64,000 bases of DNA, from contig JADFJB010000002.1 of assembly GCA_022566355.1 (NCBI GenBank), forward strand, positions 1 to 64,000, given 5' to 3'. Shown in pieces: positions 11,420-20,929 of this stretch (positions are counted from its first letter, which is position 1; every line of letters begins with the position of its first letter). The notes beneath the pieces are model-generated. The model ran no database searches. It was not told where the DNA came from and saw only the letters and a list, made by a program, of their open reading frames with translations. Both the position numbers and the translations under genes were made by a program. The DNA is from a candidate division KSB1 bacterium (GTDB taxonomy: Bacteria > Zhuqueibacterota > JdFR-76 > DREG01).

Positions 11420-14134
11420 CTATTTCTCTTTTAAAACCGCTTGTGCAGCGGCTAACCTGGCAATTGGCACCCTGTATGGTGAACAGCTAACATAATTCAT
11501 TCCCACTTTGTGGCAGAATTCAACGGATTTCGGCTCTCCTCCGTGTTCTCCGCATATTCCGATTTTAAGATCCGGTTTAGTAGATCTACCTTTTTCCACA
11601 CCCATCTTGACAAGCTGTCCGACTCCTTCCTGATCTAATACCTGGAACGGATCTTCCGGAAGAATATTCATCTCTTGATACGCTGCCAAAAACTTTCCTG
11701 CGTCATCCCTGCTGTATCCATAAGTAAGCTGGGTTAAATCGTTGGTACCAAAAGAAAAGAAATCGGCAACTTCGGCAATCTTGTCTGCGATAAGAACCGC
11801 TCGGGGAATTTCAATCATTGTTCCAATTGAATAATCGACTTCTATGCCGTATTCTTCTTGAACCCTTTTGGCAACTTTCTCAATAATTTCCCGCTGGTGG
11901 ATCAATTCTTCTTTGGTTCCAATGAGGGGGATCATAATTTCCGGGTAAACGTTGATCCCTTCTTTTACCAATTCACAAGTTGCTGCAATGATTGCATGAG
12001 CTTGCATTTCGGTTATTTCCGGGTAAACAATGCCCAGGCGGCAACCGCGATGGCCTAACATCGGATTGAACTCGCTTAGGCTTTCAACTTTGTTCCTCAC
12101 ATCTTCCAAAGAAATACCCATTTCATCGGCCATCTCTTGCTGTTGCTTTTCTTCGTGAGGTAAAAATTCATGCAACGGTGGATCAAGAGTACGAATGGTT
12201 ACCGGTAAATCTTTCATAACTTTTAGGATTTCGTAAAAATCGCCTTTTTGCATGGGAAGCAGTTTGTCGAGCGCAGAGCGACGACCCGCTTCATCATCAG
12301 CTAAAATCATTTCCCGCACCGCTTTTATACGATCCCCTTCAAAAAACATGTGCTCTGTTCGACAAAGTCCAATTCCTTCCGCACCGAAATTCCGGGCCAC
12401 TTTGGAATCATGTGGCGTATCTGCATTGGTGCGAACATTCAATTTGCGGATGCCATCTGCCCATTCCATCAACCTGCCAAAATTTCCGGATAGCTGGGAT
12501 TCGATCGTTGCTACCTCTCCCGTCATAACCTCACCCGTCGTTCCATTTAAAGAAATATTATCGCCCTCTTTAATTACGAGATCTCCAATTCGGATTTCTC
12601 GATTCGAGTAGCTTATATTCAAAGTGCCAACACCTGCAACACAACAAGTACCCATTCCACGCGCTACAACCGCGGCATGAGAAGTCATGCCACCTCGGGA
12701 GGTTAAAATTCCATTAGCTACATGCATTCCCCCAATATCCTCCGGTGAGGTTTCGATTCGGACCAGGATGACTTTTTCTCCTCGTTCCACCCACACCTCC
12801 GCCTCATCGGCATGAAATACAACCCTACCCGTTGCAGCACCTGGCGATGCCGGTAATCCTTTAGCAACTACATTTTTTTTCGCTTCAGGATCAAATTGCG
12901 GGTGCAGCAGATGTTCGAGTTGATTCGGGTTAATTCTCAGTACCGCTTCATCGCGAGTGATTAATCCTTCATCTACCATTTCCACTGCGATTCGAACAGC
13001 TGCTTCTGCTGTTCTTTTGCCATTCCTGGTTTGAAGCATCCACAATTTGTTTCGTTGAATTGTAAACTCAATATCTTGCATATCCCGGTAATGATGATCC
13101 AGTTTTTTGTATATTCCAACCAATTCCTGATATGCTTCAGGCATATATTCTTCTAATGATAAAGCTTTTTCTTTCCTGACCTCTTCCGGCATATCGCATT
13201 GAATAGCTGTTAGTTGACTATGCTTTTGGGTGATTTGTTGAGGTGTTCGAGTTCCCGCAACAACATCTTCACCCTGTGCATTTATTAAATACTCTCCAAA
13301 AAACACATTCTCGCCTGTAGCCGGGTCACGAGTAAAGGCAACGCCGGTTGCACAATCATCACCCATATTTCCAAAAACCATCGCCTGAACATTTATGGCT
13401 GTTCCCCAATCTGCTGGGATTCCATTCAGTTTTCGATAAGTGATCGCTCTTTGGTTCATCCAGGAATTAAATACAGCGCCGATAGACCCCCATAACTGTT
13501 CCCAGGGATCTGTTGGGAAATCGGCTCCTTTCTTTTCTTTAATCAACATTTTAAAAAGGGTAACCAATTCCTTTACGTCAGCTGCTATGAGATCCGCATC
13601 TAGTTTAACGCCCCGAACAGCCTTCATTTCATCGATAATAACTTCAAACGGATCCTCTGCTTCTTTTGATTCCGGCTTCAAATCCATAACGACATCGCCA
13701 TACATCTGAACAAATCGACGATAAGAATCCCAGGCATAGCGTTCGTTGTTAGATTGTTTAATAATCCCCTGAACGCTTACATCATTTAAGCCGAGGTTAA
13801 GGACAGTGTCCATCATCCCCGGCATCGAAGCCCGAGCGCCTGACCTGACCGATAGCAAAAGCGGGTTGGTCGAATCATTAAATTTAGCGCCCATACTATT
13901 TTCAACTTCAGAAATAGCTTCTTTAACCTGGGCTTCTAATTCCTGGGGATATTTATGGTCATTTGCATAGTACCTTTTGCAAACTTCGGTTGTAATTGTA
14001 AAACCAGCGGGAACCCGAATTCCCAGGTTGCTCATTTCAGCTAAGTTTGCTCCTTTTCCTCCCAACAAATGTTTCATTTCAGATTTGCCTTCAGCTTTGC
14101 CATCGCCAAAGGAGTATACCATTTTAATAGACAT
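11420..14134 (-). CDS. ppdK: Pyruvate, phosphate dikinase
   Basis: Interconverts pyruvate, ATP and phosphate with PEP, AMP and pyrophosphate, usable in gluconeogenesis or pyrophosphate-linked glycolysis. Domains run in the usual order: ATP-grasp nucleotide-binding (about 1-350, with KGANLAEM and SVRSGARASMPGMMDT), phosphohistidine domain with catalytic His486 in GGMTSHAAVVARGMG, and the PEP/pyruvate TIM barrel with LGHRGCRLG, FGTNDLTQ and the acid-base Cys in GICGEHGGEP. The start is ATG 14134, with AAGGAG 6 nt upstream; a TTG just before it is less likely. About 904 residues is the family norm. Confidence 0.97.
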   Translation of the reverse strand: MSIKMVYSFGDGKAEGKSEMKHLLGGKGANLAEMSNLGIRVPAGFTITTEVCKRYYANDHKYPQELEAQVKEAISEVENSMGAKFNDSTNPLLLSVRSGARASMPGMMDTVLNLGLNDVSVQGIIKQSNNERYAWDSYRRFVQMYGDVVMDLKPESKEAEDPFEVIIDEMKAVRGVKLDADLIAADVKELVTLFKMLIKEKKGADFPTDPWEQLWGSIGAVFNSWMNQRAITYRKLNGIPADWGTAINVQAMVFGNMGDDCATGVAFTRDPATGENVFFGEYLINAQGEDVVAGTRTPQQITQKHSQLTAIQCDMPEEVRKEKALSLEEYMPEAYQELVGIYKKLDHHYRDMQDIEFTIQRNKLWMLQTRNGKRTAEAAVRIAVEMVDEGLITRDEAVLRINPNQLEHLLHPQFDPEAKKNVVAKGLPASPGAATGRVVFHADEAEVWVERGEKVILVRIETSPEDIGGMHVANGILTSRGGMTSHAAVVARGMGTCCVAGVGTLNISYSNREIRIGDLVIKEGDNISLNGTTGEVMTGEVATIESQLSGNFGRLMEWADGIRKLNVRTNADTPHDSKVARNFGAEGIGLCRTEHMFFEGDRIKAVREMILADDEAGRRSALDKLLPMQKGDFYEILKVMKDLPVTIRTLDPPLHEFLPHEEKQQQEMADEMGISLEDVRNKVESLSEFNPMLGHRGCRLGIVYPEITEMQAHAIIAATCELVKEGINVYPEIMIPLIGTKEELIHQREIIEKVAKRVQEEYGIEVDYSIGTMIEIPRAVLIADKIAEVADFFSFGTNDLTQLTYGYSRDDAGKFLAAYQEMNILPEDPFQVLDQEGVGQLVKMGVEKGRSTKPDLKIGICGEHGGEPKSVEFCHKVGMNYVSCSPYRVPIARLAAAQAVLKEK

Positions 14135-18217: not shown

Positions 18218-19531
18218 TTATTGGTAATAATCTAAGCCAAGATGCGTAATTTGTTCTTCGCCCATTAAATACCTGAGAGTATTTTTCAATTTCATATGCT
18301 GTATAAAAAGATCGTGTTCCGGGTATAAGTCGGGTAAACACATCGGACTTTTGAGATAAAATGACAGCCATTCTTGAATCCCTTTCATACCTGCCCTTTG
18401 TGCTAAATTCATAAAAAGGACAAGGTCCAAAACTATCGGCGCTGCCAAAATGCTATCCCGACAAAGGAAATTTATCTTGATTTGCATAGGATATCCCATC
18501 CAGCCAAAAATGTCTATATTATCCCACCCTTCCTTATTATCCCCCCGGGGGGGATAATAATTTATACGAACTTTATGATAAAAATCTTTGTACAGATCCG
18601 GGTATATATCCGGTTGAAAAATATATTCAAGGACGGAGAGCTTACTTTCTTCTTTGGTTTTAAACGACTCCGGATCGTCTAAAACTTCACCGTCCCGGTT
18701 GCCAAGAAGATTGGTTGAAAACCACCCGGATAATCCAAGTAATCTGGCTTTAAGGCCTGGTGCTAAAATTGTTTTCATAAGGGTTTGACCGGTCTTAAAA
18801 TCTTTTCCTGCAATAGGAACATTTTTCATGTCGGCAAGCTGGATCATTGCAGGAAAATCTACCGATAAATTCGGCGCGCCATTAATAAACGGAATCCCAC
18901 ATTGCAGCGCTGCATAAGCATAAAGCATACTTGGAGCAATTTCAGGATGGTTTGCATCTATAGCTTTTTCGAAAGTATCCATTGATTGGTGAATTTCGCC
19001 AGTCTTGATGAAAATTTCGGTACTGGCGCACCAGATCATCACAACATCTCTTAGTTGGTACATTTCCTTAAACGATTGAATATCATCCATCAATTGGTTG
19101 GCTAAATCTCGTTTGGAATTTCCTGTCTTTACATGAGTTCCAGATAATTTTTTAACATACTCCTGGTTAAAAACAGCCTTTTGCGGCTTCATGGATTCGA
19201 GCTCGTCTTTGACAGAATCCAAATGATGACGTTCCAATACACCCGCTTTTAAAGCAGCTTGATATGCATTATCTTCGAAAATATCCCAAGAGGTAATGAC
19301 TAAATCATCAAGGTTATATAATGGAACCAACTCTTTTATGAGCGGGTTTTTGTGTTCGGTTCGTTTTCCTAACCGAATGGCGCCCATTTGGGTAAGTGAT
19401 CCTATCGGTTTGGCTAACCCTTTTTTTATGGTCTCAACACCTGCGATAAAAGTGGTACTGACTGCCCCTAATCCTACCAACATAATCCCAAGCTTACCTT
19501 CAACGGGTTTAATATCAGCCCTATTTGTCAT
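18218..19531 (-). CDS. ino1: Inositol-3-phosphate synthase
   Basis: Converts glucose-6-phosphate to 1L-myo-inositol-3-phosphate using NAD+. The Rossmann nucleotide loop is GIMLVGLGAVSTTFIAG (15-31). The catalytic-domain segments INGAPNLSVDFPAM, IAGKDFKTGQT and LSGWFSTNLLGNRDG are characteristic of the family. The 437-residue length is typical for prokaryotic forms. Directly upstream is a CDP-alcohol phosphotransferase of the inositol type, so the pair points to phosphatidylinositol synthesis. An unusual 27-nt GC-cored palindrome lies inside the coding region at 18534-18560. Confidence 0.95.
   Translation of the reverse strand: MTNRADIKPVEGKLGIMLVGLGAVSTTFIAGVETIKKGLAKPIGSLTQMGAIRLGKRTEHKNPLIKELVPLYNLDDLVITSWDIFEDNAYQAALKAGVLERHHLDSVKDELESMKPQKAVFNQEYVKKLSGTHVKTGNSKRDLANQLMDDIQSFKEMYQLRDVVMIWCASTEIFIKTGEIHQSMDTFEKAIDANHPEIAPSMLYAYAALQCGIPFINGAPNLSVDFPAMIQLADMKNVPIAGKDFKTGQTLMKTILAPGLKARLLGLSGWFSTNLLGNRDGEVLDDPESFKTKEESKLSVLEYIFQPDIYPDLYKDFYHKVRINYYPPRGDNKEGWDNIDIFGWMGYPMQIKINFLCRDSILAAPIVLDLVLFMNLAQRAGMKGIQEWLSFYLKSPMCLPDLYPEHDLFIQHMKLKNTLRYLMGEEQITHLGLDYYQ
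18534..18560. repeat. Near-perfect palindrome inside ino1
   Basis: TTATTATCCCCCC (18534-18546) and GGGGGGATAATAA (18548-18560) are exact inverted repeats around a single G at 18547. On the coding strand they encode the NYYPPRGDNK segment of ino1, so the palindrome is at least partly imposed by the protein sequence. Confidence 0.8.
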
Positions 19532-19583: not shown

Positions 19584-20255
19584 TTAACCCATTTTGTCAA
19601 ATTCATCAATGATTTCATCTTTCTTTCCGTTTTCCTTGCTATAAATGAAGTATATTCTCTGGATAGCCGTGACATTTGTCATTATCGCAAGTATGACCAT
19701 TCCTACTGACAATGCATATACATGAATGAGCGCCGCCGCACCCATTGTGATTATTCTTTCTGGCCTTTGGAAAATTCCAACTTTGCAAGAAAACCCCAAT
19801 CCTTCAGCTCGTGCCCGAACATAACTAACCATCACAGACCCACCCAAAGCAATACAACTTGCTATAGATGATTTAAACATATCTTGAGAAATGAAATAAT
19901 ATGCAATACCAAAATAAACAATCATTTCTGCCTATCTATCCAGCGTCGAGTCATACAATGCCCCAAAGCGAGTTACCTGGTTTGATGCACGCGCTATTTT
20001 CCCATCCAGAATATCGAATATTCCCGAAAGAAAAACAAAAACGGCTCCCAATCTGAGGGAACCCGTCGCAAAAAAATAACCGGAAAACATACTAATACTA
20101 AACCCAACGGTTGTAAAAGCATTCGGATTAATATTTAATCGGACAAGAAAATTGCCTAGTGGTTCAATTATCTTTAGAAATGTGGTCTTCATCGAATCCC
20201 AAACATTTTTTATCGAAACCATTTTATCCTTTTCCACCACTAAACCCATCTTCAT
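19584..20255 (-). pseudogene. Phosphatidylinositol-phosphate-synthase-like CDP-alcohol phosphotransferase, interrupted by an in-frame amber codon
   Basis: Would transfer inositol phosphate onto CDP-diacylglycerol (or a related CDP-alcohol) in the inner membrane. The first half, up to 19935, contains the complete family motif DGxxAR-x8-GxxxD-xxxD as DGKIAR...GALYDSTLD. TAG at 19932-19934 follows LDR, where relatives usually have Tyr. The frame then continues without shift through AEMIVYFGIAYYF and SYVRARAEGLGFSCKVG to IFQRPER, the inositol-type signature, to 19584. A single substitution of TAT or TAC explains the break. The second half has an ATG (19923-19925) two codons later and could be reinitiated. 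The first ATG overlaps the rsmI stop; ATG at 20222 with AAGGAT before it is an alternative. Confidence 0.85.
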
Positions 20256-20929
20256 TTTGACATTCCTTGAACAACTAAAACGAACTCGCCTTTATTAATC
20301 CTCTGCTCGTATGTTTGAATTGCTTTTTCTATAGTTGTTCGATTTATCTCTTCATACAATTTAGTTAATTCCCGGGCAATAACTAAGTCACGATTGCCCA
20401 AATATTCAAATAATTCTTTTAACGTTTTCAATAACCGATGGCGAGATTCAAATAATACAATTGTCCGTTTTTCCTCACTCAATTGAACCAGTCTTGATCT
20501 ACGCCCTTTTTTCACCGGTAGAAATCCTTCAAACACAAATCGATTTGTAGGCAATCCGGAAACTACTAATGCAGCAAGTAGAGCTGATGCGCCTGGAGCC
20601 GGAATTATCGGTATGTTTTTCTCAATTGCTTGATTTACAAGATAATACGCTGGATCTGAAATTCCAGGTGTACCGGCGTCAGTGATTACTGCAATATTCT
20701 CATTGTTCATAAGCTTCTTAATAATAATCGGCGTTTTCTTGGCCTGGTTATAAGAATGAAAACTTGTAACTTTCGTCGAGATCTTATAATGATTTAAAAG
20801 CACTCGACTGGTTCTTGTATCTTCTGCAGCAATCAAATCAACTTTTGAAAGAACATCACATGCGCGATATGTAATATCACCTAAATTCCCGATTGGCGTA
20901 CTAACAATATAGAGAGTCCCGGTTTCCAT
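20252..20929 (-). CDS. rsmI: 16S rRNA (cytidine-1402 2'-O)-methyltransferase RsmI
   Basis: Methylates the 2'-O of C1402 in the ribosomal decoding centre using S-adenosylmethionine. The tetrapyrrole-methylase-like fold is shown by LYIVSTPIGNLGDITYRA (6-23), AAEDTRTSRVLLNHY (34-48) and the SAM-binding VITDAGTPGISDPAY (79-93). At 225 residues it lacks roughly the last 50-60 residues of the E. coli protein, a form also seen in other lineages. It begins 3 bp after the lat stop, and its own TGA overlaps the next ATG. Confidence 0.93.
   Translation of the reverse strand: METGTLYIVSTPIGNLGDITYRACDVLSKVDLIAAEDTRTSRVLLNHYKISTKVTSFHSYNQAKKTPIIIKKLMNNENIAVITDAGTPGISDPAYYLVNQAIEKNIPIIPAPGASALLAALVVSGLPTNRFVFEGFLPVKKGRRSRLVQLSEEKRTIVLFESRHRLLKTLKELFEYLGNRDLVIARELTKLYEEINRTTIEKAIQTYEQRINKGEFVLVVQGMSK

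Follow-up and report, generated by a model that had tools for sequence, protein, structure and literature searches.

The closest described systems are phosphatidylinositol-phosphate synthases (PIPS) with solved structures, namely PgsA1 of Mycobacterium tuberculosis (6h53/6h59) and the proteins of Renibacterium (5d91/5d92) and M. kansasii (6wm5), together with BT_1523 of Bacteroides thetaiotaomicron. The latter belongs to the BT_1522-1526 inositol-lipid cluster, in which the transferase gene lies beside a myo-inositol-phosphate synthase gene (PMC9246714). B. thetaiotaomicron survives the deletion of PIPS, at a cost to fitness (PMC9246714). In the window, which is the whole analysed stretch of 64,000 nucleotides, a PIPS-like gene likewise stands beside a myo-inositol-phosphate synthase gene and is interrupted by one in-frame TAG. 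The features of this locus are as follows.

20252..20929, minus strand: rsmI, 16S rRNA 2'-O-methyltransferase, with a 4-base overlap with the PIPS start (ATGA)
19584..20255, minus strand: interrupted PIPS-like CDP-alcohol phosphatidyltransferase gene (pgsA1/BT_1523-like), from translation, profile and fold matches
19932..20255, minus strand: upstream open frame, 107 aa, with the complete catalytic motif inside
19938..20015, minus strand: CDP-alcohol phosphatidyltransferase catalytic motif, codons 81-106 (motif as quoted in PMC9246714)
19932..19934, minus strand: in-frame TAG, codon 108, the sole internal in-frame stop of the PIPS-like gene
19887..19970, minus strand: one continuous helix predicted by AlphaFold2, codons 96-123, with D102, D106 and residue 108
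19584..19925, minus strand: downstream open frame, 113 aa, from the ATG 2 codons past the TAG
19755..19826, minus strand: inositol-type signature SYVRARAEGLG..CKVG..QRPER, codons 144-167, nearly invariant
18218..19531, minus strand: ino1, myo-inositol-1-phosphate synthase, intact, directly downstream of PIPS

Reading frame and family of the interrupted gene

The PIPS-like gene extends on the minus strand from an ATG at 20255 to a TAA at 19584 and comprises 224 codons including the stop, or 223 residues. The first-pass annotation had named no strand; the plus-strand frame of 19584-20255 is not open and is full of stops. Its description of a frame that is intact save for one TAG was borne out (19934-19932, the only stop inside), as was the presence of an ATG two codons further on, which is located at 19925-19923. 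Owing to the TAG at codon 108, the gene is not a single uninterrupted PIPS reading frame. The frame with its stop is nonetheless no chance frame, because related genomes contain full-length homologues with 73-44% identity.

With the TAG read as Tyr, the protein matched the Pfam family CDP-OH_P_transf over residues 43-192, across the stop (1.3e-18), and the NCBIfam models for PIPS, archaetidylinositol-phosphate synthase and the BT_1523-type PIPS, all under the equivalog cut-offs. The AlphaFold2 model of the read-through protein had a mean pLDDT of 83.5, with the blocks spanning residues 101-140 at 91-98, and matched the PgsA1/PIPS and AF2299 folds. Together with the matches to solved PIPS chains (see below), these results confirm the family to which the gene had originally been assigned. 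The claim that both halves carry family motifs also holds. The catalytic motif DxxDGxxAR(x8)GxxxDxxxD is complete (D81xxD84G85xxA88R89...G98xxxD102xxxD106) and lies wholly upstream of the TAG, and the inositol-phosphate-site signature RARAE...RPER, which is invariant or nearly so among 32 sequences, follows after it. The partner gene ino1 was found intact and directly downstream (18218-19531), as first described, and the order aminotransferase-rsmI-PIPS-ino1 is kept in most relatives. The own genome contains one PIPS orthologue; a second CDP-alcohol transferase match is at 28% identity.

Codon 108 and conservation among relatives

All 59 related genomes that were searched had a PIPS match, and most of them contained a clear orthologue with 74-38% identity, none of which had a TAG inside. 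The related loci belong to metagenome-assembled genomes (MAGs) labelled Bacteroidota and Deferribacteres. Among 39 homologue loci covering the site, some of which are duplicates from the same genome, codon 108 was TAC in 24, TAT in 14 and TTT in one; two more loci are truncated at a contig end and lack the site. Tyr is thus the usual residue here (38/39, with Phe in the remaining locus), as had been proposed, and TAG occurred at this codon in none of the 39 homologue loci but only in the own genome. A second assembly of the same species was not found in one contig search. Candidates for a split homologue were rejected, as the C-half hits in two genomes (G018 and G058) lie at contig ends and two pieces in a third (G044) form a single open frame that contains an insertion.

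The nearest relative is 74% identical in the N-terminal and 77% in the C-terminal half, and the next relative 66% and 63%, respectively. With G002 as outgroup, the own genome had 6 unique residues in the N-terminal half compared with 9 in the nearest relative, and 9 compared with 7 in the C-terminal half, and hence no excess in either half. No further stops, indels or excess amino-acid change, such as would be expected had the gene been dead for long, were seen in the PIPS-like gene. Because both halves are equally conserved, purifying selection acted on the gene until very recently. This lack of decay implies that the lesion is very young, that it is an error, or that the gene still works.

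Stop codon usage and other interrupted genes in the same genome

RF1 is present and intact in the own genome (530 bits). TAG terminates 139 of the 665 long ORFs (21%), in agreement with its previously noted use as a normal stop. PylS had no match in the own genome, while one control genome was over the cut-off in the same search. The first-pass annotation had called for a search for an amber-suppressor tRNA. No tRNA with a CUA anticodon was among those found in the draft genome, with the Rfam scan covering 150 of 299 candidates, nor in a re-scan of 1.5 Mb. A targeted pattern with a CTA anticodon gave 65 matches compared with 83 for the reversed control, and ARAGORN recognized no tRNA in the 30 that were fetched. 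The in-frame TAG of PIPS does not recur in the relatives, and the interruptions in the own genome involve all three stop types.

These interruptions were surveyed as single stops flanked on either side by coding sequence of the same frame, in 1.5 Mb (about one third) of the own genome, and selected cases were checked with Pfam and against relatives. As a survey by composition alone is noisy, with many hits being ordinary tandem genes that share a frame, cases were counted only if a domain or a relative spanned the stop; the cases given here are thus a minimum, and others may have been missed. An ExoIII/endonuclease-exonuclease-phosphatase gene (L207:1968-2717; G000 contig C8:21968-22714) has a single in-frame TAA (L207:2349); this type was found in 5 of 12 relatives and is uninterrupted in G006, G008 and G010. 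A DUF5916 gene (L143:11163-13433, G000 contig C71) has a single TAA at 12672, and its homologue in G005 (42% identity) is uninterrupted; the own genome has five further DUF5916 matches. In-frame TGA codons occur in an OsmC-like gene (L162:7012-7536; G000 contig C1:47012-47536, minus strand), which was found in 1 of 12 relatives, and within the domain of a DUF559 gene (L153:1625-2029, G000 contig C139, minus strand). The TGA of the OsmC-like gene is probably not a selenocysteine codon, a reading that was rejected with neither tRNA-Sec nor SelB over the cut-off in the own genome. No obvious case of an interrupted housekeeping gene was encountered in the survey, which may have missed cases. Since single stops of all three types, the PIPS TAG included, occur in the assembly, the PIPS amber is not special and interrupted genes are a background feature.

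Further candidates include a TAG-interrupted BNR/sortilin-type gene with only weak relatives (L152:6196-7323, C129) and a TAG-interrupted PD40 repeat gene (L216:19600-19998, C13). A TerC-family gene (L162:5343-5729, C1, minus strand) has a conserved N-terminus after a TGA, with no start codon nearby. The inner TAA of prfB (RF2; L097 near 2530-2560, C77, minus strand) was rejected as an interruption, as it belongs to the canonical programmed +1 frameshift site AGGGGGTACCTTTGA.

Nonsense allele, sequence error or recoding

The amber codon looks like an ordinary nonsense lesion or a sequence error in a known gene, and a new reading of the genetic code is disfavoured. Thus, two of the four options initially listed, nonsense mutation and sequence error, were retained, while amber suppression and two reinitiated polypeptides fell behind. 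We consider a real, recent loss-of-function allele the leading explanation, with a probability of about 0.5. According to this interpretation, one base of the Tyr108 codon would recently have mutated to give a stop in the PIPS gene of an uncultured bacterium, within the conserved rsmI-PIPS-ino1 order, and the sampled population would carry a null or truncated allele. Ribosomes would terminate at the TAG via RF1, and the 107-residue product, which would end just past the last catalytic Asp and partway through a predicted transmembrane helix, should be inactive. Without appreciable read-through, synthesis of phosphatidylinositol-phosphate would then be abolished or impaired. In favour of a recent allele, the gene has just one lesion and no decay in either half, it is the sole PIPS orthologue of the genome, RF1 is intact while PylS and any detected CUA tRNA are lacking, TAG is a regular ORF terminator, and other genes of the genome are interrupted by single TAA or TGA codons. 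Moreover, a natural null allele is plausible because the B. thetaiotaomicron deletion is viable. Against it, the adjoining ino1 is intact, and the loss would be unusual given that a match was found in all 59 related genomes searched and a clear orthologue in most of them. An error in the consensus or assembly of the MAG, in which case the living cell would have a sense codon and make a normal full-length PIPS, is a strong contender that we rate somewhat lower. The genome is an assembly of 213 contigs, TAG is one base from either Tyr codon, the gene shows no other defect and is conserved throughout the phylum, and the isolated single stops in several other genes of the sampled third are what a modest rate of substitution errors would give. 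However, those genes are mostly accessory or dispensable kinds (OsmC, DUF5916, ExoIII-type), which is expected of real null alleles and not of random errors, and no obvious housekeeping gene is among those that the survey, which may have missed cases, picked up. For the leading explanation, the data show the stop, the family, the conservation of both halves, the presence of RF1 and the lack of any detected suppressor, whereas a TAG genuinely carried by the genome and a loss of function are inferred.

The two explanations that would keep the gene working despite a genuine TAG fare far worse. Amber read-through or suppression, by a suppressor tRNA, pyrrolysine or near-cognate Tyr decoding, would yield full-length PIPS and would agree with the lack of decay beyond the stop and with the intact ino1 gene; sequence data can never rule out a low level of near-cognate decoding. 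However, the tRNAs found, the pattern search and the 1.5 Mb re-scan contained no CUA anticodon, PylS is absent whereas RF1 is there, TAG commonly serves as a terminal stop, the TAG inside PIPS is shared by no relative, and one amber suppressor would be insufficient for genes cut by TAA and TGA, so that we regard this explanation as improbable. It is just as improbable that a bacterium with standard RF1 tolerates the TAG and keeps PIPS functional, be it that near-cognate decoding inserts Tyr efficiently or that a suppressor tRNA escaped detection in a part of the genome missing from the assembly. The lowest probability falls to a two-part PIPS, in which translation would stop at the TAG and reinitiate at the ATG six bases on, with assembly of the two polypeptides. 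The nearby ATG and the conservation of both halves would suit such an arrangement, but the break lies within a single uninterrupted predicted helix, to which both D102 and D106 belong, and no relative has a split gene, C-half-only homologues being situated at contig ends. Furthermore, the nearest relative, G001, already has this Met in its unbroken homologue (DRYAEM); it is thus ancestral, with no sign of a gain for reinitiation. In general, caution is advised when a gene of a draft metagenome-derived genome is flawless except for one in-frame TAG, as this need not mean recoding; isolated TAA and TGA interruptions occur in the same assembly here. If the nonsense allele is real, inositol-lipid synthesis would have been lost naturally in a group whose members nearly all retain the gene.

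Compared with known systems, the PIPS-like protein shares its fold with the PgsA1/PIPS structures listed above (Foldseek E down to 1e-9) and belongs to the same sequence family (phmmer 2e-26), with the complete catalytic motif and the RARAE...RPER signature. It differs in that its gene is interrupted by TAG and in that it scores slightly under the NCBIfam equivalog cut-off (152 compared with 170 bits). The protein also matches the BT_1523-type model NF052561 (4e-50), but is distant from BT_1523 in sequence (170 bits, with 350 needed), and, in contrast to the B. thetaiotaomicron cluster, the neighbours here are rsmI and a MATE gene. The gene resembles ordinary nonsense alleles and young pseudogenes, of which the TAA and TGA cases are examples in the same assembly, in having one isolated stop and no further decay, whereas unlike these the affected gene is otherwise conserved across the whole phylum sample.
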